This document shows positions 15,053-50,433 of a stretch of DNA of 64,000 nt, piece after piece (position 1 is the stretch's first letter; the number at the start of each line of letters is the position of its first letter). The notes beneath the pieces were generated by a model. It was not told the origin of the DNA and made no database searches. It saw only the letters and a list, made by a program, of their open reading frames with translations. The stretch is from Chloroflexota bacterium (lineage in GTDB: Bacteria > Chloroflexota > Anaerolineae > Anaerolineales > Villigracilaceae). The DNA lies in contig JAJYLQ010000002.1 of assembly GCA_021787595.1 (NCBI GenBank), positions 124,001 through 188,000 of the forward strand, written 5' to 3'. Both the position numbers and the translations under genes were made by a program.

Positions 15053-15216
15053 CCTTTTCTGTTATAATCGCCACCGAACAAACCAAAGGAGAGAGACTCA
15101 TGCCCAAGAAGACCAAGGGCTCTATTGCGCTACCCCTCGAAAAAGAAGAGATACTCAAAGATTGCCGATTCGCCTGCCAGTCGCGGCAGGCGAGTCTGAC
15201 TCCTGTAAAGGCGTAA
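15053..15216 (+). pseudogene. Duplicated promoter and 5' end of the E1 dehydrogenase gene
   Basis: Bases 15053-15213 repeat, with substitutions and a 3-bp insertion, the promoter (TATAAT at 15063), ribosome binding site (AAAGGAGAGAGACTC) and first 34 codons of the E1 gene that starts at 30804. The copy reads from ATG 15100 to a stop at 15216 (38 residues, MPKKTKGSIALPLEKEEIL...). It lacks all catalytic parts and is a remnant. It lies directly upstream of the MOSC gene and may supply its promoter. Confidence 0.85.
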
Positions 15217-30803: not shown

Positions 30804-33233
30804 ATGCCCAAGACCAAGGGCGCTCTTGCGTTACCCCTCGAAAAAGAAGAGATACTCAAGGATTATCGTCTCGCCTATCAATCGCGGCAGGCGAGTCTGA
30901 TTGGCCGGCGCGAGGTGCTGAGCGGCAAAGCCAAGTTTGGCATCTTCGGCGACGGCAAGGAACTCGCCAACATCGCCATTGCGCGTGCTTTCCGCAAGGG
31001 CGACTGGCGTTCCGGCTATTATCGTGACCAAACCTGGATGTTCATGTTGGGAGTGATGAGCATCCAGGAATTTTTTGCCCAGCTTTACGCGCACGCAGAC
31101 GTTGAAGCCGAATCGAACACGGGCGGGCGCGGCATGGATGCACATTTCGCTTCGCGTTACATCAAACCCAACGGCACATGGAAAAATCAAATGGAGATGT
31201 ACAACACGTCCGCGGATGTTTCACCGACGGGAACACAAATGCCGCGCACGGTGGGTCTCGCATACGCGTCAGTTGTGTATCGCAAACTTGTAGAGGCGAA
31301 TGGTCAATCGCCCCTACCCGAATTTAAAAATTTTTCACACAACGGCGAAGAGATTGCATGGGCAAGTATCGGCAACGCATCCACTGCTGAGGGCATGTTT
31401 TGGGAATCGGTCAACGCCATCGGTGTGTTGCAGGCGCCCGCAGTCATCACGGTTTATGATGATGGTTATGGCATCTCCGTCCCGAATCAATTTCAGATGG
31501 TCAAGGAAAATATTTACGCCATCCTCAAAGGCTTCGAGCGCGAGCCTTGCATGGAGGAAGATTGCGAGCGCGGCTACGATCTGTATCAGGTGCGCGGCTG
31601 GGATTATCCCGCGCTGATCGAAACCTATCAGAACGCGGCGGAGATCACGCGCAAATATCACATCCCGCAGTTGGTGCATGTCATTGATGTGACTCAGCCG
31701 CAGGGACACTCCACCTCGGGCAGTCATGAACGTTATAAGACTCCAGAGCGACTTAAGTTCGAGGAGGAATTTGATTGCGTTCGCAAGATGCGCGAATGGA
31801 TGATAGAGAACCGCCTCGTCTCGGGCCCGGAGCTGGTCGCCATTGAAAAGGCGGACCACGAAACTGTGGAGGGAATCCGCAAAGCCGCGTGGGACGCGTA
31901 TCTCGACCCGATTCTTGAAGAGCGCGCCCAGGTCATGGATATGCTCGATGAGATCGCGGGTTCTTCAAATCACGCGTCAGAGTTGAACAACATCAAAGAA
32001 CGGCTGGCCGCTCTCCCGTCGCCGTTGAGGCGTGACGTTCATTCCGCCGCGCATGAAGCTCTGCGAGTCCTGCGCGACGAAGAGAATCCATCGAAGCAAG
32101 TTTTGATCCAATGGAAAAATGATCAGGACGCGATCAACGTCGAACGTTATGGTTCGCATCTTTACAGCGGAAGCGCGTTGAAGGTCGAGGAAGTCAAGCC
32201 CGTGTATTCGGTTAACTCACCGACGATGTTTGGCTTCGAGGTCATCAACGCCGCGTTCGATAAAATTCTGGAGCGTGATCCGCGCGTGATCGCGTTCGGC
32301 GAGGATGTGGGTCTGCTCGGCGACGTGAACCAGGGCTTCAAAGGGATGCAGGAAAAATACGGCGCGCTGCGCGTGACCGACACGGGCATTCGTGAGGCCA
32401 CGATTTTGGGACAGGCGATTGGCATGGCGATGCGCGGCTTGCGACCGATCTGCGAAATCCAATATCTCGATTATTTGTTGTACGCGCTGCAAACCATGTC
32501 CGACGATTTGGCGACTCTGCATTGGCGCTCCGCAGGCGGACAATCCGCGCCTGTTATCGTCCGCACGCGCGGCCATCGTCTCGAAGGCATTTGGCATTCA
32601 GGTTCGCTGATGTCGGGAATCATGAACTTGACGCGCGGCATGAATATTTTGGTGCCGCGTGATATGACGCGCGCGGCGGGTTTTTACAACACGATGTTGA
32701 AATCCGATGAACCTGCGTTGATCGTCGAAGTGTTGAACGGTTATCGCGTCAAGGAAAAATTGCCCGATAACATCGGCGAGATGACTGTCCCGCTTGGCGT
32801 ACCAGAAGTGATCCGCGAAGGAAAAGATGTCACCATCGTAACTTACGGCGCATGTTGCAGAATCGCGCTTGACGCGGCAGAGAAGTTAAGCAAGGTTGGA
32901 ATTGAAGTCGAGTTGATTGATGTTCAATCGCTCGTGCCATTTGATATTCACAGCAAGATCGTCGAGTCGTTGAAGAAAACGAATCGCGCTTTGTTTTTGG
33001 ATGAAGATGTGCCAGGCGGAACGTCCGCGTATATGATGCGGGAAGTCGTCGAAAAACAAGGCGGCTATTATTATCTCGACTCTGAACCAAGAACCTTAAG
33101 CGGCACCGAGCATCGTCCCGCCTATGGAAGCGATGGAGATTACTGGTCGAAGCCGAATGCGGAGACGGTTTTCGATACAGTTTATGAGATGATGAATGAA
33201 GTTGATCCGAGTCAGTATCCAGTGATCAAGTGA
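30804..33233 (+). CDS. 2-oxoacid dehydrogenase E1 component, fused alpha and beta subunits
   Basis: The 809-residue protein joins a thiamine-diphosphate E1-alpha domain (about 1-400; GRGMDAHF, NGEEIAWASIGNASTAEG, VYDDGYGIS) to an E1-beta domain (about 470-809; FGEDVGLLGDVNQG, TGIREATILG, LDEDVPGGTSAYM). It decarboxylates a 2-oxoacid and passes the acyl group to the E2 lipoyl domain. The fusion and sequence resemble branched-chain or acetoin-type E1 more than bacterial AceE; the exact substrate is uncertain. It opens a locus with E2 (33799) and E3 (36644). Confidence 0.88.
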   Translation: MPKTKGALALPLEKEEILKDYRLAYQSRQASLIGRREVLSGKAKFGIFGDGKELANIAIARAFRKGDWRSGYYRDQTWMFMLGVMSIQEFFAQLYAHADVEAESNTGGRGMDAHFASRYIKPNGTWKNQMEMYNTSADVSPTGTQMPRTVGLAYASVVYRKLVEANGQSPLPEFKNFSHNGEEIAWASIGNASTAEGMFWESVNAIGVLQAPAVITVYDDGYGISVPNQFQMVKENIYAILKGFEREPCMEEDCERGYDLYQVRGWDYPALIETYQNAAEITRKYHIPQLVHVIDVTQPQGHSTSGSHERYKTPERLKFEEEFDCVRKMREWMIENRLVSGPELVAIEKADHETVEGIRKAAWDAYLDPILEERAQVMDMLDEIAGSSNHASELNNIKERLAALPSPLRRDVHSAAHEALRVLRDEENPSKQVLIQWKNDQDAINVERYGSHLYSGSALKVEEVKPVYSVNSPTMFGFEVINAAFDKILERDPRVIAFGEDVGLLGDVNQGFKGMQEKYGALRVTDTGIREATILGQAIGMAMRGLRPICEIQYLDYLLYALQTMSDDLATLHWRSAGGQSAPVIVRTRGHRLEGIWHSGSLMSGIMNLTRGMNILVPRDMTRAAGFYNTMLKSDEPALIVEVLNGYRVKEKLPDNIGEMTVPLGVPEVIREGKDVTIVTYGACCRIALDAAEKLSKVGIEVELIDVQSLVPFDIHSKIVESLKKTNRALFLDEDVPGGTSAYMMREVVEKQGGYYYLDSEPRTLSGTEHRPAYGSDGDYWSKPNAETVFDTVYEMMNEVDPSQYPVIK

Positions 33234-33786
33234 TCAGTAATCGAGTGATCAGTCAACAGTGAAAGGAGCAAACATGAGCGCGTTGAAACATGCAGGTAGT
33301 TTCCATGATTTGATCGTGTATCAGAAAAGCCGACAATTGCAGAGGGAAATCTTCAGACTCACGAAATCATTTCCGAAGGAAGAGATATTTTCGTTGACGG
33401 ATCAAATCCGCCGCTCTTCTCGATCTATTGGCGCGAACATTACGGAAGCGTGGGCAAAGCGTAGATACGAGAAGCACTTCATCAGCAAATTGACAGACTC
33501 GGACGGGGAACAAATGGAAACTCAGCACTGGATAGAAACTGCATTGGAATGCAACTATATTGATCAGAAAACAAGCGCGTCGCTCATGGAGAAATGCCTT
33601 GAAATCGGACGTATGTTGAATAGCATGATGGACAAAGCCGACATGTTCTGCGGAGAACCTCCTCATTCTCTCCGCGAAGAGTCTGCCGAATATTTCACGG
33701 CACTGATGACTGATAACTGATCACCGATCACTGATGACTGATAACTGATCACCGATCACTAATAACTGATCACTGATAACTTTTCT
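33231..33786. repeat. Inverted iterated-motif arrays around a four-helix-bundle gene
   Basis: Bases 33231-33258 carry GTGATCAGTAATCGAGTGATCAG; bases 33706-33786 carry many units of the complementary kind, TGATAACTGATCACCGATCACTGATGACTG and so on, period about 10-14 nt. The left array is the inverse of the right. The arrays bracket only the S23-like gene. Motifs vary, and no unique spacers of fixed length exist, so it is not a CRISPR. Confidence 0.75.
33274..33720 (+). CDS. Four-helix-bundle protein (S23/bAvd-like family)
   Basis: A 148-residue protein with the family pattern: FHDLIVYQKSRQLQREIFRLT, then SLTDQIRRSSRSIGANITEAWAK, and TQHWIETALECNYID near residue 90. The family includes proteins encoded in 23S rRNA intervening sequences and the Avd accessory proteins of diversity-generating retroelements; most have no known role. 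AAAGGAG lies 5 nt before the ATG. It interrupts the E1-E2 operon between two inverted iterated-motif arrays and looks like an inserted cassette. No reverse transcriptase is present. Confidence 0.88.
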   Translation: MSALKHAGSFHDLIVYQKSRQLQREIFRLTKSFPKEEIFSLTDQIRRSSRSIGANITEAWAKRRYEKHFISKLTDSDGEQMETQHWIETALECNYIDQKTSASLMEKCLEIGRMLNSMMDKADMFCGEPPHSLREESAEYFTALMTDN

Positions 33787-33798
33787 ACTGGAGGTCAA

Positions 33799-35031
33799 AT
33801 GGCTACCAAAGTTTTAGTTCCTCTACTCGGTGAAGGTGTTGAAGAAGTTACCGTTACAAAATGGCTGAAAAAAGAAGGCGACTCGGTTAAAGAGTTGGAA
33901 CCATTGCTTGAAGTCAACACGGATAAAGTTGACACAGAAATTCCCGCGCCTGCAACGGGAACAGTGCTGAAAATCGTCGCGCAGGAAGGCTTGCCTGCCA
34001 AAGTTGGGACGATATTAGCATTCATCGGAAAGCCGGGAGAATCCGTTGAAGGAGCAAGCGCATCCGCAGGAATGGCAGAAAGCGAAAAGCGTAAAACGCA
34101 AAACGCAATGTCCACCGTTCAACCTGCAACTTTGAACCTGCAACCTGAAACCAAAGAGATTGGATTTATCTCTCCCGTTGTCGCAAAGATCGCCGCAGAA
34201 CATGGCGTGAACTTGTCGGAAGTTCAAGGCACGGGGTTGAATGGGCGCATCACAAAGAATGATGTAATGAACTTTGTAGAAAGTGGAAAGAAGTCCGTAG
34301 ACCGTGGACCGCAGACCGTCAACCGTCAACCGTCTACGGTCTCGCATATCGAAGGCGATCAGCTTATTAAACATACCGTGATCCGCAAACAAATTGCTGA
34401 ACATATGGTGATGAGCAAACATACTTCGCCGCATGTGCTGGCCGTCATGGAAGCGGACATGAGCAAAGTCGTCTCGCATCGGAATGCGAACAAAGATATC
34501 TTTGCGCGTGACGGAGTCAATCTCACTTTCACAGCCTATCTCATGATGGCAATCACGGCGGGATTGAAGGCTTATCCGATGACAAATTCATCCTGGACAG
34601 ATGAAGGCATTCTCGTTCACAAAGCTGTCAACATTGGCATGGCAACTTCGCTCGGCGAAGAAGGTTTGATCGTCCCGGTCATCAAGAATGCCGACAACCT
34701 TTCTTTATTGGCAATGGCACGCACAGTCAATGATTTGGCGAACCGCGCCCGCAGTAAGAAACTCCAGCCCGATGAAGTCAAAGGCGGGACATTCACATTA
34801 ACCAATCACGGAGTGAGCAAATCGCTGTTTTCATTCCCGATCATCAACCAGCCTCAATGCGGAATCCTCGGCGTCGGTGCGATGCAGAAGCGTGTGGTGG
34901 TAATCAATGATGCGATTGCCATCCGTCCGATGGTTTATTTATCGTTTGTTTTCGATCATCGCATTCTGGATGGCGCCAGCGCGGACGCATTCCTGATGAA
35001 GGTCAAAGAGACTTTGGAGAATTGGAATTAG
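33799..35031 (+). CDS. 2-oxoacid dehydrogenase E2 component (dihydrolipoamide acyltransferase)
   Basis: The 410-residue protein has a lipoyl domain (about 1-77, lipoyl-Lys43 in NTDKVDT), an E3-binding domain (about 125-160, ISPVVAKIAAEHGVN) and a catalytic acyltransferase domain (about 185-410) with the active-site FDHRILDG. It forms the complex core with E1 and E3. Both linkers are encoded by iterated short motifs (34087-34152 and 34292-34343), a sign of repeat insertion in tolerant regions. GGAGG precedes the ATG. The acyl substrate is not certain. Confidence 0.9.
   Translation: MATKVLVPLLGEGVEEVTVTKWLKKEGDSVKELEPLLEVNTDKVDTEIPAPATGTVLKIVAQEGLPAKVGTILAFIGKPGESVEGASASAGMAESEKRKTQNAMSTVQPATLNLQPETKEIGFISPVVAKIAAEHGVNLSEVQGTGLNGRITKNDVMNFVESGKKSVDRGPQTVNRQPSTVSHIEGDQLIKHTVIRKQIAEHMVMSKHTSPHVLAVMEADMSKVVSHRNANKDIFARDGVNLTFTAYLMMAITAGLKAYPMTNSSWTDEGILVHKAVNIGMATSLGEEGLIVPVIKNADNLSLLAMARTVNDLANRARSKKLQPDEVKGGTFTLTNHGVSKSLFSFPIINQPQCGILGVGAMQKRVVVINDAIAIRPMVYLSFVFDHRILDGASADAFLMKVKETLENWN
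34087..34343. repeat. Iterated short motifs in the two E2 linkers
   Basis: Linker 1 (34087-34152) iterates AAAACGCA and then CAACCTGCAAC/TTGAACCTG. Linker 2 (34292-34343) iterates GACCGT/CAACCGT and contains CCGTAGACC with an inverted copy GGTCTACGG type end. Each tract keeps the frame open. Confidence 0.6.
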
Positions 35032-41826: not shown

Positions 41827-41999
41827 TATTACAGCGCAAAGTTAGAGTGTTGAGGGTTCTGCTCATGGCTTTCCTACCGTTTTCGCCCTCATCCCCAACC
41901 CTTCCCCCAAATGGGGAAGGGAGTCTCCTCTCCCTTTGGGAGAGGGAAAGGGTGAGGGAGAATTGGCAGGGAACGATTGCTCGACCTTGCGCTGTAATG
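41827..41999 (+). mobile_element. 173-bp inverted-end element, copy 1
   Basis: The unit has inverted ends TATTACAGCGCAA and TTGCGCTGTAATG, and is flanked by TTAG on both sides (41823-41826 and 42000-42003). The core has hairpins CCTTCCCC/GGGGAAGG and CCTCTCCC/GGGAGAGG. It lies 60 bp upstream of the metalloprotease start. It encodes no transposase. Three further copies are in the window. Confidence 0.85.
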
Positions 42000-42032
42000 T
42001 TAGAGAGTGTTTTAAAAATCAATGTTTCAACT

Positions 42033-47172: not shown

Positions 47173-48507
47173 ATGTCCAAACGTCTTACCGGTATTCTTG
47201 CCGTGCCTGTGCTGGTTGTCCTTGCGATCGGCGTGTATTACATTCCGCCGGTGCATGAACGCCTCGCCTGGCGTCTCGATGACTTCCGCACGCGCGTCAT
47301 CTATTATTTCAGACCGCCCGATCAAGCCGTCTTCCTCCCGGAAATCTCGCAACAGGTTGCGATCGATTCCATCGTCCAGGCGACGATGCAGGCGTATTCG
47401 ACAGCGCAGGCGATTTCATTGACGCCGACTCCGTTACCAGGTCCGACCGCGACGCCCACGCTCACGCCGGAACCGTTACCGGCCACCGTTTCCTTGAGCG
47501 GAGTCAAATACGAGGACCAGTTCAACCGCTGGAATTATTGCGGTCCCGCAAATTTTGCGATGGCGCTAACGTTCTGGGGCTGGGACGGCAACCGCGATGT
47601 GATCGGCAAAGCCGTCATGCCGGGCAACACGGGCAAGAATGGCCTGCCCGCCAACATGGACAAGAACGTGATGCCGTATGAACTTCAGGATTATATTTCG
47701 GCGAACGTGCCGAATATGTCTTCGGTCCTGCGCTACGGCGGCGACATGGATGTGGTCAAGCGGTTGGTTGCCGGCGGCTTCCCGGTCATTGCAGAAAAAG
47801 GCGAGTACCAGCGCGATACCACCGGCAGTCTCAGTTGGATGGGACATTATCAATTCATCACCGGCTACGATGACACGGCGCAAACGCTTCTGATCCAGGA
47901 CACCTATTTGGACGGCCCGAATTTCCGTGTTGCGTACGATAAATTCATGACCGACTGGCGCAGCTTCAATGATGTCTTTGTCGTGGTTTATCCAACAGAT
48001 CGCGAATCGCAAGTGATGTCCCTGCTCGGCCCCTACGCCGACGAAAAATGGGCGCTGGATCACGCGCTGCAAGTTGCGACCGCTGATTCGCAAACGCTCA
48101 CCGGCGTTGACCGGTTCTTTGCGTGGTTCGACATCGGTACGAGTCACGTGGCTTTGCAGGAATATGCGGACGCGGCTTCCGCGTACGATTATGCTTTCCA
48201 GCTTTATGCCAATCTTCCCGCCGATTACGCAACGCGTCCGTGGCGCATGATGTGGTACCAGACCGGCCCATACTTTGCGTATTTCTATTCCAATCGTTAT
48301 CAGGATGTGATCAATCTGGCGAATATCACATTGACGTACAACATCACCAAACCTGTTTTGGAAGAAAGCCTCTACTGGCGCGGCCGCGCGGAGGCTGTCA
48401 CTGGCAATCCGCAAGCCGCGATCAGGGATTATCGCGCCGCGCTGGTCGTGCATCAAAACTATCCGCCTGCGGTTCAGGGATTGCAGGATTTGGGAGTGAG
48501 TCCGTAG
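47173..48507 (+). CDS. Membrane-anchored C39-like cysteine peptidase with TPR repeats (paralogue)
   Basis: The 444-residue protein has a signal anchor (about 5-24), a Thr/Pro linker, a C39_2 peptidase domain (about 112-265) and TPR-like helices (about 290-440). Candidate catalytic residues are Cys123 (NYCGPAN) and His225 (GHYQFITGYDD). It shares domain order and segments such as YDKxMTDWxSFN and GHYxxITGYDDTA with the protein encoded at 7960. Both are probably extracytoplasmic with unknown substrate. The start lies 7 nt after TATAAT. Confidence 0.78.
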   Translation: MSKRLTGILAVPVLVVLAIGVYYIPPVHERLAWRLDDFRTRVIYYFRPPDQAVFLPEISQQVAIDSIVQATMQAYSTAQAISLTPTPLPGPTATPTLTPEPLPATVSLSGVKYEDQFNRWNYCGPANFAMALTFWGWDGNRDVIGKAVMPGNTGKNGLPANMDKNVMPYELQDYISANVPNMSSVLRYGGDMDVVKRLVAGGFPVIAEKGEYQRDTTGSLSWMGHYQFITGYDDTAQTLLIQDTYLDGPNFRVAYDKFMTDWRSFNDVFVVVYPTDRESQVMSLLGPYADEKWALDHALQVATADSQTLTGVDRFFAWFDIGTSHVALQEYADAASAYDYAFQLYANLPADYATRPWRMMWYQTGPYFAYFYSNRYQDVINLANITLTYNITKPVLEESLYWRGRAEAVTGNPQAAIRDYRAALVVHQNYPPAVQGLQDLGVSP

Positions 48508-48568
48508 TTGAGTAGTTATGTAGCTCGATAGTTACATAGTTTGATGGTTTGTTGGAGGAGGAGAGAGC

Positions 48569-49129
48569 ATGGCTAAGATTGAACGTTTTGAAGATTTGCA
48601 AAGCTGGCAAAAGTCGCGCCAGCTCGCGAATTCAATTTATGACTTAACTGAATGTCAAAGATTTGCCAAAGATTTTCATCTTCGTGGACAAATTCAGGAC
48701 GCGGCGGGATCGGTCATGCACAACGTCGCCGAAGGTTTTGATGCCGGAACCAATCTCAAATTCATTCGCTTTCTCAAGATCGCAAGGCGTTCGGCAAGTG
48801 AAGTTCAATCTGAACTTTATTTAGTATTACAGCGCAAAGTTAGAGTTTTGAGGGTTCTGCTCATGGCTTTTCTACCGTTTTCGCCCTCATCCCCACCCCT
48901 TCCCCCGAATGGGGAAGGGAGTCTCCTCTCCCTTTGGGAGAGGGAAAGGGTGAGGGAGAATTGGCAGGGAACGATTGCTCGACCTTGCGCTGTAATGTTA
49001 GCACTCGACCGTAATTACATCAACCAAAATGAACTTGATTCGGCTTACAATTTGGCTACTGAAACCAAACGCCTCATCAACGGCATGATTGCCTGCCTGC
49101 GAAAATCCAAACGTTCCACCACTACCTAA
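48569..49129 (+). CDS. Four-helix-bundle protein (S23/bAvd-like) with a 59-codon element insertion
   Basis: The 186-residue frame begins like the family (FEDLQSWQKSRQLANSIYDLT; GQIQDAAGSVMHNVAEGFD) and ends like it (ALDRNYINQNELDSAYNLATETKRLINGMI). Between SELYL and ALDRN, 59 residues (VLQRKVRVLRVL ... ARPCAVML) are encoded by the 173-bp element plus a 4-bp duplication, 177 bp in all, so the frame stays open. Without it the protein would have 127 residues, the usual size. GGAGGAGGAG precedes the ATG. The insertion probably disrupts the bundle between helices 3 and 4. Confidence 0.85.
   Translation: MAKIERFEDLQSWQKSRQLANSIYDLTECQRFAKDFHLRGQIQDAAGSVMHNVAEGFDAGTNLKFIRFLKIARRSASEVQSELYLVLQRKVRVLRVLLMAFLPFSPSSPPLPPNGEGSLLSLWERERVRENWQGTIARPCAVMLALDRNYINQNELDSAYNLATETKRLINGMIACLRKSKRSTTT
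48825..48997 (+). mobile_element. 173-bp inverted-end element, copy 2 (inside a gene)
   Basis: It is flanked by TTAG at 48821-48824 and 48998-49001. Removing the element and one TTAG joins SELYL to ALDRNYI, the expected uninterrupted family sequence. This shows both the element's borders and the 4-bp target duplication. Confidence 0.92.
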
Positions 49130-49155
49130 CTACCTAACTACAAAACTACCGAACT

Positions 49156-50433
49156 ATGAAACTACTCCACTTTGCCGACGCCCACATTGACATGGCCAAC
49201 TATGGCCGACACGATCCCGAAACGGGCTTGCCGCTGCGTGTGATCGACTTTCTCAAGTCGCTCGATACGATCGTAGACACCGCCGTCGCCGAAAAAGTGG
49301 ACATGGTCATCTTCGCGGGCGACGCATACAAAGATCGTTCGCCTGCGCCGACGTTTCAACGCGAATGGGGCAGGCGCATTATTCGTTTATCGCAGGCAAA
49401 GATTCCAACTTTGCTTTTGGTTGGCAATCATGATCTCTCGCCTGCGGCCGGACGCGCGCACGCGATCCAGGAATTCGACACGCTGCAGGTGCCATACGTC
49501 AAAGTGCTGGCAAAGCCTGAGTTATTAAGTCCAAAAGATTTATGGGATTTGCCGGTTCAAGTGATTGCCCTGCCATGGATTTCGCGCTCGGGTTTGATGG
49601 TGTCCGTGGACACCACCGATACGCCGATCGAAGAAGTTTTCTCGAACATCGAATCTCGAATATCGGATTTGGTCAGTTCGTGGCTGGATGAAATTGATTC
49701 GAGCCTGCCGACCATTTTGACTGCGCACGCGTCCGTGCAGGGGGCGGCGTTTGGCTCGGAGCGGATGGTCATGCTCGGCGCGGATTTGGTTTTGCCCACG
49801 TCGCTGGTGAAGGACGATCGCTGGGATTACGTGGCCCTCGGTCACATCCACAAACCGCAGGATGTCAACAAAGGCGCGCATCCGCCTGTAATTTATCCTG
49901 GCTCTATCGAGCGCGTGGATTTTGGCGAAGCCGCCGATGACCGCTTCTTCATCGTTGCGGATGTCCAGAGACAAAATACAAAGGTTGAGTGGAGAAAGCT
50001 CGCAGGCGCGCGTCCGTTCGTGGAACGGCGAGCCGTTATCCAACCCGCGCTGACGACCGAAGGGAGGGTCGAAGCGTCGAATGAGAACGTGACGGAGACT
50101 CTGATCGCCGCTTTACCAAAGTCAAAAGATTTGGATGGCGCCATCGTCAAGTTGACCGTCGAATATCCACGCGAATATGATTCGTTGATTGATGAAGCCG
50201 CGTTGCGAAAATACGCGGAAAAAGCGTTTGAATTTCATTTGGTCAAACGCCCGCAAATAGAGGCGCGCATCCGCCTGCCCGCCGGTCAAACCGTCAGCAG
50301 TCTTTCCCCGCTCGATTTGCTGGATCAATACTGGCGCGCCGCGCACACCGATCCATCCGACGCAGAGGCATTACAAAAACTGGCTCGTGAAATTCTGGCG
50401 AACAGTAACGAAAACAGTGAGGGAGCGTTATAA
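49156..50433 (+). CDS. SbcD/Mre11-like DNA repair exonuclease
   Basis: The 425-residue protein has the calcineurin-like phosphoesterase metal motifs in order: FADAHID (residue 6), FAGDAYKDR (about 53), VGNHD (about 95), TAHASVQG (about 195) and GHIHKPQ (about 238). This is the SbcD/Mre11 pattern: DNA exo/endonuclease acting at breaks and hairpins. SbcC is not adjacent; the next gene encodes a 50-residue membrane protein. There is no ribosome binding site; the start directly follows the iterated array. Confidence 0.85.
   Translation: MKLLHFADAHIDMANYGRHDPETGLPLRVIDFLKSLDTIVDTAVAEKVDMVIFAGDAYKDRSPAPTFQREWGRRIIRLSQAKIPTLLLVGNHDLSPAAGRAHAIQEFDTLQVPYVKVLAKPELLSPKDLWDLPVQVIALPWISRSGLMVSVDTTDTPIEEVFSNIESRISDLVSSWLDEIDSSLPTILTAHASVQGAAFGSERMVMLGADLVLPTSLVKDDRWDYVALGHIHKPQDVNKGAHPPVIYPGSIERVDFGEAADDRFFIVADVQRQNTKVEWRKLAGARPFVERRAVIQPALTTEGRVEASNENVTETLIAALPKSKDLDGAIVKLTVEYPREYDSLIDEAALRKYAEKAFEFHLVKRPQIEARIRLPAGQTVSSLSPLDLLDQYWRAAHTDPSDAEALQKLAREILANSNENSEGAL

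Follow-up and report, generated by a model that had tools for sequence, protein, structure and literature searches.

We describe an S23 gene, i.e. a gene for a 23S rRNA intervening-sequence protein (IVP), which lies between facing heptamer arrays within a 2-oxoacid dehydrogenase operon of a Chloroflexota bacterium; "the window" denotes the whole analysed stretch of 64,000 nucleotides (contig JAJYLQ010000002.1, positions 124,001 to 188,000). On balance, we favour the reading that S23/IVP genes belong together with inverted heptamer arrays in a single system, which resembles RAYT-REPIN and whose resident protein has no known catalytic domain. We read S23 as the resident partner of heptamer arrays dispersed through the genome. 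This reading draws on the framing of S23 genes by matching arrays, on the comparison of occupied with empty sites, on the relation between repeat word and protein lineage, and on arrays that stand without a gene.

S23 genes framed by inverted heptamer arrays

The focal protein belongs to the S23/IVP family by two profiles, both over their curated cut-offs (PF05635, 5.6e-35, 120.2 bits against 33.8; TIGR02436, 2.9e-33, 114.3 bits against 24), and also matches bAvd (PF22296, 1.3e-12); 2rld and 2gsc are solved relatives. No HUH/Y1 transposase domain was found in the gene, which matches only 23S_rRNA_IVP and bAvd. The left array takes in the final codons and the stop (33231-33233) of E1; the right array contains the final codons of the S23 gene and ends a few bases 5' of the Shine-Dalgarno sequence of E2 (ATG at 33799). 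Compared with the reverse complement of the right flank, the left flank scores 36, mismatched pairs of the 22 loci of the same genome averaging 11.0 (standard deviation 2.6). In the predicted fold of positions 33205-33795 (-171.9 kcal/mol), 49 arm-arm pairs are formed, i.e. complementary ends able to form a stem are present. An earlier note on this DNA, made from the letters alone, had described facing arrays around the gene: the inverted arrays are real, but their repeat unit is 7 nt and not 14.

A profile search of the own genome (G000, 4.08 Mb) returned 22 S23 family matches (loci L001-L022), most of them with inverted heptamer arrays, each with its own motif. Autocorrelation at lag 7 in their flanks reaches 0.447 on the left and 0.463 on the right, for a background of 0.247; lags 14 and 21 are likewise elevated, lag 8 is slightly up (0.319/0.299) and lag 15 is up on the left (0.332). 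The array unit of S23 cassettes is a degenerate 7 nt, which is the period of heptamer simple sequence repeats such as the STRRs, the heptamer repeats of cyanobacteria. The own right flank was the best partner of the left flank in 14 of the 22 copies, and ranked second in three, third in two and fifth in one; L003 and L010 showed no left-right array match. As a control, 685 open reading frames (ORFs) in 864 kb of G000 averaged a left-right score of 10.1. Twelve of them scored at least 16, and seven of these were S23 genes; the sample holds nine S23 genes, a tenth falling 529 bp outside one of its stretches. One of the five non-S23 ORFs resembles a transposase by eye. On this count, inverted array framing is specific to S23.

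On the coding strand of L001-L022, G exceeds C in the left flank of 19 of the 22 copies, and C exceeds G in the right flank of 18.

The survey was extended to the order with 62 loci from 22 relatives' genomes (best-scoring places among the matches listed) and 20 further loci. For the resulting 104 loci, the own left-right score had a mean of 20.3 and a median of 19, while 2000 permutations gave a mean of 10.7 and a maximum of 11.9; 72 loci exceeded the 95th percentile of mismatched pairs. The expectation that flanks of S23 genes collected across the order would carry inverted arrays was borne out; the contrary case named beforehand, in which the majority of genomes would have the gene but no arrays, was not observed. 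Beyond the order, GTDB contigs were scanned with four L097-clade proteins, and at least 80 loci were kept. By record title, those listed come from Chloroflexi, Cyanobacteria, Nitrospirae, Spirochaetales, Poribacteria, Acidobacteria, Bacteroidetes, Planctomycetota and others; two or more of them (L189, L243) coincide with L101 and L103. Among the 78 listed loci whose flanks were long enough, lag 7 stood at 0.489/0.430. Thirty-three of the 78 exceeded the 95th percentile of mismatched pairs, a percentile which is raised because the L097 clade shares a TCAGCNN-like word. Among 12 plasmid and viral loci (10 plasmid, 2 viral), 11 scored at least 19 for a mismatched mean of 11.6; L404 scored 7, its arrays being direct and not inverted, and L398 is a near-copy of L399. 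With the 2gsc query, 16 of 72,556 plasmid records matched.

Carriage by viruses was considered and not retained, one query clade having found 2 loci in viral_contigs. At L402, L403 and L404, loci on cyanobacterial plasmids, the S23 genes lie within CRISPR operons (between cas10 and cmr3; between cas6 and cas4).

Occupied sites, empty sites and protein lineage

E1 is followed by E2 in 16 of the 19 loci read, the focal one included. The junction holds an S23 gene in six genomes (G000, G002, G005, G007, G009, G017), a PF13366-type gene in two (G012 and, broken, G013; L030, L033), gene-less inverted arrays, assigned by eye, in four (G004, G006, G011, G015) and nothing in three (G016, G018, G025); G003 was not assignable. 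The clean junctions agree with the view that the S23 gene splits two normally adjoining genes. Junction S23 genes fall into two clades, A in G000, G009 and G017 and B in G002, G005 and G007; L125 of G008 falls in clade B but sits in a paralogous operon. S23 genes of two clades have taken up the E1-E2 junction, on at least two occasions. The repeated insertion proposed in the earlier note is borne out in this respect and is not supported for the copies within G000, whose best identity is 66%.

Upstream segments of L001-L017 were sought in the same-genus genomes G004 (14 of 17 found) and G002 (13 of 17), the state of each site being assigned by eye. In these 27 site-genome combinations, S23 was present in 8 and absent in 19. 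Ten of the 19 S23-free sites had no arrays either (L003, L005, L009, L010 and L012 in G004; L003, L004, L005, L010 and L012 in G002). Gene-less inverted arrays were found at seven (L001, L004, L006, L007 and L008 in G004; L007 and L008 in G002), of which only L004 in G004 bears the word of the G000 copy; the L002 site in G004 keeps a one-arm remnant, and the L013 site in G004 was not assignable. The cleanest site is L005: the empty form reads CTAATGAC, with overlapping stop and start, and the filled form reads CTAA, array, S23, array, ATGAC. Target-site duplication amounts to at most 1 nt there, and possibly to AGGA at the L012 site. The S23 gene and its facing arrays act as a single cassette, as had been proposed; since 10 of the 19 gene-free sites lack arrays, the arrays arrive together with the gene. 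In our reading, the sites with arrays alone hold elements of this kind that lack the gene, or what is left of them.

The similarity of arrays at different sites (i.e. with flanking frames without likeness) was compared with protein identity in a set of 84 loci, pairs below 40% identity being sampled. It rose from 7.5-7.9 (below 50%) to 8.9 (50-60%), 12.7 (60-70%), 15.8 (70-80%, 22 pairs) and 23.0 (above 80%, 3 pairs). In a protein tree (83 sequences over 142 columns, with 31 of 80 inner branches left open), the AGAGA-bearing copies at the pheT site group with AGAGA copies from a different site (support 96), and L136, at another site of G007 and with the same word, is placed next to L001 (94). 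The repeat word follows protein lineage, not site. The suggestion that the cassette makes its own arrays where it inserts had to be given up: words track the protein, and arrays are absent from clean empty sites. Concerted word change at one site was likewise rejected for the pheT copies, which are different lineages (96%), and for L139, which stands apart from L131, L132 and L153; this rejection covers pheT and L131/L139, not L114/L145.

The copies do not stem from a burst within the genome. The closest pair in G000 is 66% identical and the maximum within any genome sampled is 71%, with no near-identical copies among those compared. For 13 of 21 comparable own copies, the nearest sampled relative lies in another genome; for the other eight it lies in G000 itself, at only 35-64% identity. 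The ratio of non-synonymous to synonymous substitution rates (dN/dS) is 0.02-0.11 in 7 of 16 pairs, with dS already high (1.25-2.5), the other nine being saturated. The S23 protein is under purifying selection.

Gene-less arrays and the proposed system

A scan of 864 kb of G000 gave 47 lag-7 segments, every other lag from 2 to 12 giving 0-9. The solo arrays of this genome score 20.4 against the flanks of its own S23 genes and 15.5-17.6 against 20 random sets of 22 relatives' loci. In 400 kb of each genome, and with 9 loci sampled per genome, the own S23 set was the best match for the solo arrays of G007 (26.2) and G010 (22.3), other sets giving 15.3-17.5. Dispersed repeats of the resident gene's class are clear in G007 and G010, and in G000 only with all 22 loci. 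Arrays of TATCGAA are many in G007, yet the word is absent from its seven S23 genes first fetched; it was predicted beforehand that a further S23 gene of this genome would carry it, and L337 does; 7 of 22 solo arrays match it best. An inverted partner lies near 17 of 43 solo arrays in G000, 5 of 18 in G010 and 4 of 22 in G007, for controls of 4/215, 3/90 and 7/110, respectively. Gene-less arrays, some of them hairpin pairs, tend to match the words of resident S23 genes.

Apart from exceptions, few arrays are found where S23 genes are few. No lag-7 segment was found in 400 kb of G030 (no S23), one in 200 kb of G018 and none in 200 kb of G008 (two S23 each), i.e. 0, 5 and 0 per Mb, against 50 in G010 (9 S23), 60 in G007 (14) and 54 in G000 (22). 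These stretches are non-random: S23 genes are present in the ones from G000, G007 and G010, and the ones from G018 and G008 exclude the S23 loci known on their contigs. Of 121 genomes of the order, 77 have S23 and 44 do not; the TCAGCNN pattern TCAGCNNTCAGCNNTCAGC was found in 39 of the former (596 matches) and in 10 of the latter (29 matches; Fisher p 0.0037). With respect to S23 of the L097 clade (at least 52% identity), it occurs in 14 of 20 genomes against 35 of 101 (p 0.005); neither value is corrected for relatedness. The backward control pattern (CGACTNN, itself a heptamer word) occurs in 17 of the 121 genomes, with 220 matches.

Several observations weigh against the proposed system. 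Only 4 of the 47 long arrays of G000 lie within 250 bp of an S23 match and 43 are solo, because most S23 flanks fall below the strict lag-7 scan. When G000 is sampled to 9 loci, its own set is not the best match (16.0 against 16.8 for G007). The predicted words GTAACTTG/GTACCCC and CTTTCAT were absent from five further S23 genes of G007 (12 of its 14 genes covered). The majority of solo arrays have no inverted partner (26/43 in G000, 18/22 in G007, 13/18 in G010). Six of the 20 genomes with L097-clade S23 lack the TCAGCNN pattern; conversely, G149 (72% complete) has 128 CGACTNN matches and G142 (87% complete) 13 TCAGCNN matches, both without a PF05635 match. Arrays without the gene, the other contrary case named beforehand, do occur (7 of the 27 site-genome combinations and the one-arm remnant), so arrays and gene can part. 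The S23 protein has no known catalytic domain, and no constant target duplication is evident at the sites compared. Word recognition by S23, and array growth and spread with its help, are inferences.

The working of the system we favour may be pictured as follows. The S23 helical bundle would recognise its own word as DNA, either as duplex or as a single-strand hairpin at the fork; with host replication or repair, it may then let arrays lengthen by 7-nt steps. New intergenic sites would be seeded by copies of the arrays, in most cases with no gene attached, and the gene itself would mostly stay put for long, with rare changes of site or host. A five-membered ring is given in the Coxiella paper's account of the Xanthomonas S23-family structure (PMC4990558).

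Much in these elements recalls the intervening sequence (IVS) of rRNA. In Coxiella, an S23p ORF lies within the rRNA IVS, whose ends form a 28-bp stem cleaved by RNase III; immediately ahead of the ORF stand 2-3 heptamers (GACAGAT) that vary from strain to strain (PMC4990558). The rRNA IVS of Coxiella and Leptospira share with the present elements the protein family and terminal complementary sequences, and in Coxiella the heptamers (PMC4990558). The present elements look like relatives of rRNA IVS in protein operons. They differ in lying between protein genes of operons (the focal one between E1 and E2, not inside rRNA), in their long degenerate arrays, in their many lineages per genome and in the matching gene-less arrays elsewhere. 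An IVS-like RNA element, whose arms would pair in the operon mRNA, RNase III cutting the stem and the S23 segment being excised, with RNA complementarity selected, could draw on this likeness, on the arm-arm pairs of the predicted fold and on the co-directionality of S23 with its neighbours (downstream 72/84, upstream 64/84, taking the longest open frame in 750 nt). We nevertheless regard it as unlikely. Mismatches in the stems show no excess of G-T over A-C (126:152 in the Chloroflexota set, control 910:1106; 121:111 in the all-phyla set, control 3406:3805; 69:84 in PF13366 loci), leaving RNA-level selection on the stem unsupported, and sense and antisense duplexes are equally stable. Rfam gave no match in 20 of the 22 own loci, hence no rRNA there, and lineage-specific words and gene-less arrays elsewhere remain unexplained on such a reading. 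As the wobble test gave no sign of RNA-level pairing selection, a DNA-level role is preferred for S23 and its arrays.

Somewhat less probable still is a host regulatory cassette, in which S23 would regulate its operon and the arrays, spread by slippage, would serve as operator or translation signal. Purifying selection is strong, 18 site clusters hold 50 of the 84 loci, the same operon position being kept across genera, and S23 arrays frequently abut the next start codon. MacGregor found TAACTGA arrays immediately 5' of start codons and suggests translational regulation (PMC4679880). Regulation of this kind fits poorly with one site being held in relatives by different S23 clades, PF13366 genes, gene-less hairpins or nothing, and with neighbours that vary between sites (their function being unscored).

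Passive association, i.e. arrays arising by slippage in tolerant intergenic spots where S23 happens to lie, would account for arrays far from S23 and in the coding linkers of E2; we consider it very improbable, as the same word stands inverted on both sides of the gene, gene and arrays are both absent at clean empty sites, words follow lineage, and few non-S23 ORFs are framed alike (5 among the 12 best of 685). Hardly any weight can be given to retroelement mobility or mobility like that of diversity-generating retroelements (DGRs), with S23 as an Avd relative acting with a reverse transcriptase in trans that may since have been lost: the protein matches bAvd and scores 39.5 bits with the DGR Avd model, whose cut-off is 80, but 18 of 31 genomes have an RVT_1 match and the S23-rich G000 (22 S23), G002 (15) and G020 (16) have none, so that such a partner is unsupported and disfavoured for present activity. 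A Y1 transposase match occurs in 31 of 31 genomes, and is hence uninformative on a partner in trans.

In population pattern, RAYT-REPIN is the closest to the S23 system. According to the available account, a resident RAYT gene lies beside its own repeat class, with distinct single-copy lineages and dispersed gene-less repeats (PMC3116915). The S23 system likewise has several single-copy lineages per genome, as the within-genome maxima of 66% and 71% indicate, with nearest relatives elsewhere and gene-less repeats that are partly inverted pairs. It differs in its four-helix bundle without HUH/Y1 domain and in its 7-nt arrays, REPINs having palindromic 16-mers. Heptamer arrays as such have been described: TAACTGA in Beggiatoaceae, cyanobacteria and Bacteroidetes (PMC4679880), GGGAATC in Xanthomonas, with inverted pairs, and GGGGAYT in Nostoc (PMC4692102). 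They share with S23 arrays the period of 7, the intergenic position, often several per genome, and the inverted pairs of Xanthomonas, and the word of the focal locus is itself TAACTGA/TCACTGA. They differ in that no partner gene is named, the available text of PMC4679880 mentioning neither S23 nor four-helix proteins and that of PMC4692102 no S23.

Small genes of another family are framed in a comparable way. In 32 PF13366 loci (GxxExxY-type, PDDEXK_3), i.e. 3 of the 4 own copies and the 29 best-scoring relatives' loci (L053-L055, L157-L185, with L171 and L172 near-copies), the own left-right score was 23.3 against 11.2, with 22 loci above the 95th percentile. Like S23, these genes have inverted low-complexity arrays on either side, at the E1-E2 site as well; unlike S23, they encode an unrelated protein and their arrays have a period of 9 (0.351/0.354) and not 7 (0.244/0.273). 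If borne out, this would mean that array period goes with gene family.

More broadly, S23 proteins may drive heptamer arrays in bacteria, a non-catalytic ring recognising, lengthening and helping to spread its word, with the rRNA IVS as one outpost, the period set by gene family (7 for S23, 9 for PF13366), and a general class of gene-in-inverted-array elements without known transposase. We hold this wider view tentatively, at somewhat short of an even chance. It would join two old puzzles, the function of the S23p ORF and the abundance of scattered heptamer arrays: the S23p ORF of rRNA IVS is given as having no known function in the available text (PMC4990558), and MacGregor (2015) suspected transmission of heptamer arrays by a mechanism that was not evident (PMC4679880). 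Among open-licence PMC articles, we found none linking S23 genes with heptamer arrays beyond the heptamers of the Coxiella IVS. The direct prediction is that each S23 protein prefers its own heptamer word, and the many matched protein-word pairs offer material in which a recognition code could be read.

The second cassette and other features of the window

The earlier note had also pointed to the same architecture with a different motif at 48569, and this was confirmed: a second S23 gene (L014) lies there between arrays of a GTAGTT-type motif (Table 1).

Table 1. Coordinates of the two S23 cassettes and of the genes around the focal one, in window positions
Feature	Position	Strand	Basis
Fused E1 (809 aa) of a 2-oxoacid dehydrogenase complex, lying upstream	30804..33233	+	Pfam E1_dh, Transket_pyr, Transketolase_C
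Left heptamer array, GTGATCAGTAATCGAGTGATCAGT type	33220..33261		sequence; pairs with right array, score 36
S23 / 23S rRNA intervening-sequence-protein gene, four helix bundle, 148 aa, ATG start	33274..33720	+	PF05635, TIGR02436 matches
Right heptamer array, inverted relative to left (ACTGATC ACCGATC ACTGATG ACTGATA ...)	33702..33781		sequence; lag-7 segment 33694-33786, 0.83
Downstream gene, E2 acyltransferase, 410 aa	33799..35031	+	Pfam 2-oxoacid_dh, Biotin_lipoyl, E3_binding
Left array of second cassette, GTAGTTGAGTAGTT type	48504..48551		own left-right score 25 (L014)
Second S23 gene, in-frame insert at about 48825-48999	48569..49129	+	PF05635 1.2e-26; uninterrupted orthologue L146 in G004
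Right array of second cassette; covers ATG (49156) of next gene	49121..49167		sequence; L014 left-right score

The insert in the second S23 gene, which stays in frame, is an approximately 175-bp repeat bounded by ATTACAGCGC/GCGCTGTAAT; the same repeat is found again at about 41840-42010 and inside the S23 gene L010. These copies form a putative MITE-like family (MITE, miniature inverted-repeat transposable element).

The E2 gene itself contains two further heptamer arrays, both in interdomain linkers (34072-34152 and 34276-34356); the E2 linkers of relatives encode other heptamer-coded peptides there, e.g. TNHQPPTTNHQPPT in G002. Elsewhere in the window, a fragment at 15109-15204 shares 78% identity with E1 residues 3-34, and a solo heptamer array of AAGAAAG type lies near the window start (256-310).

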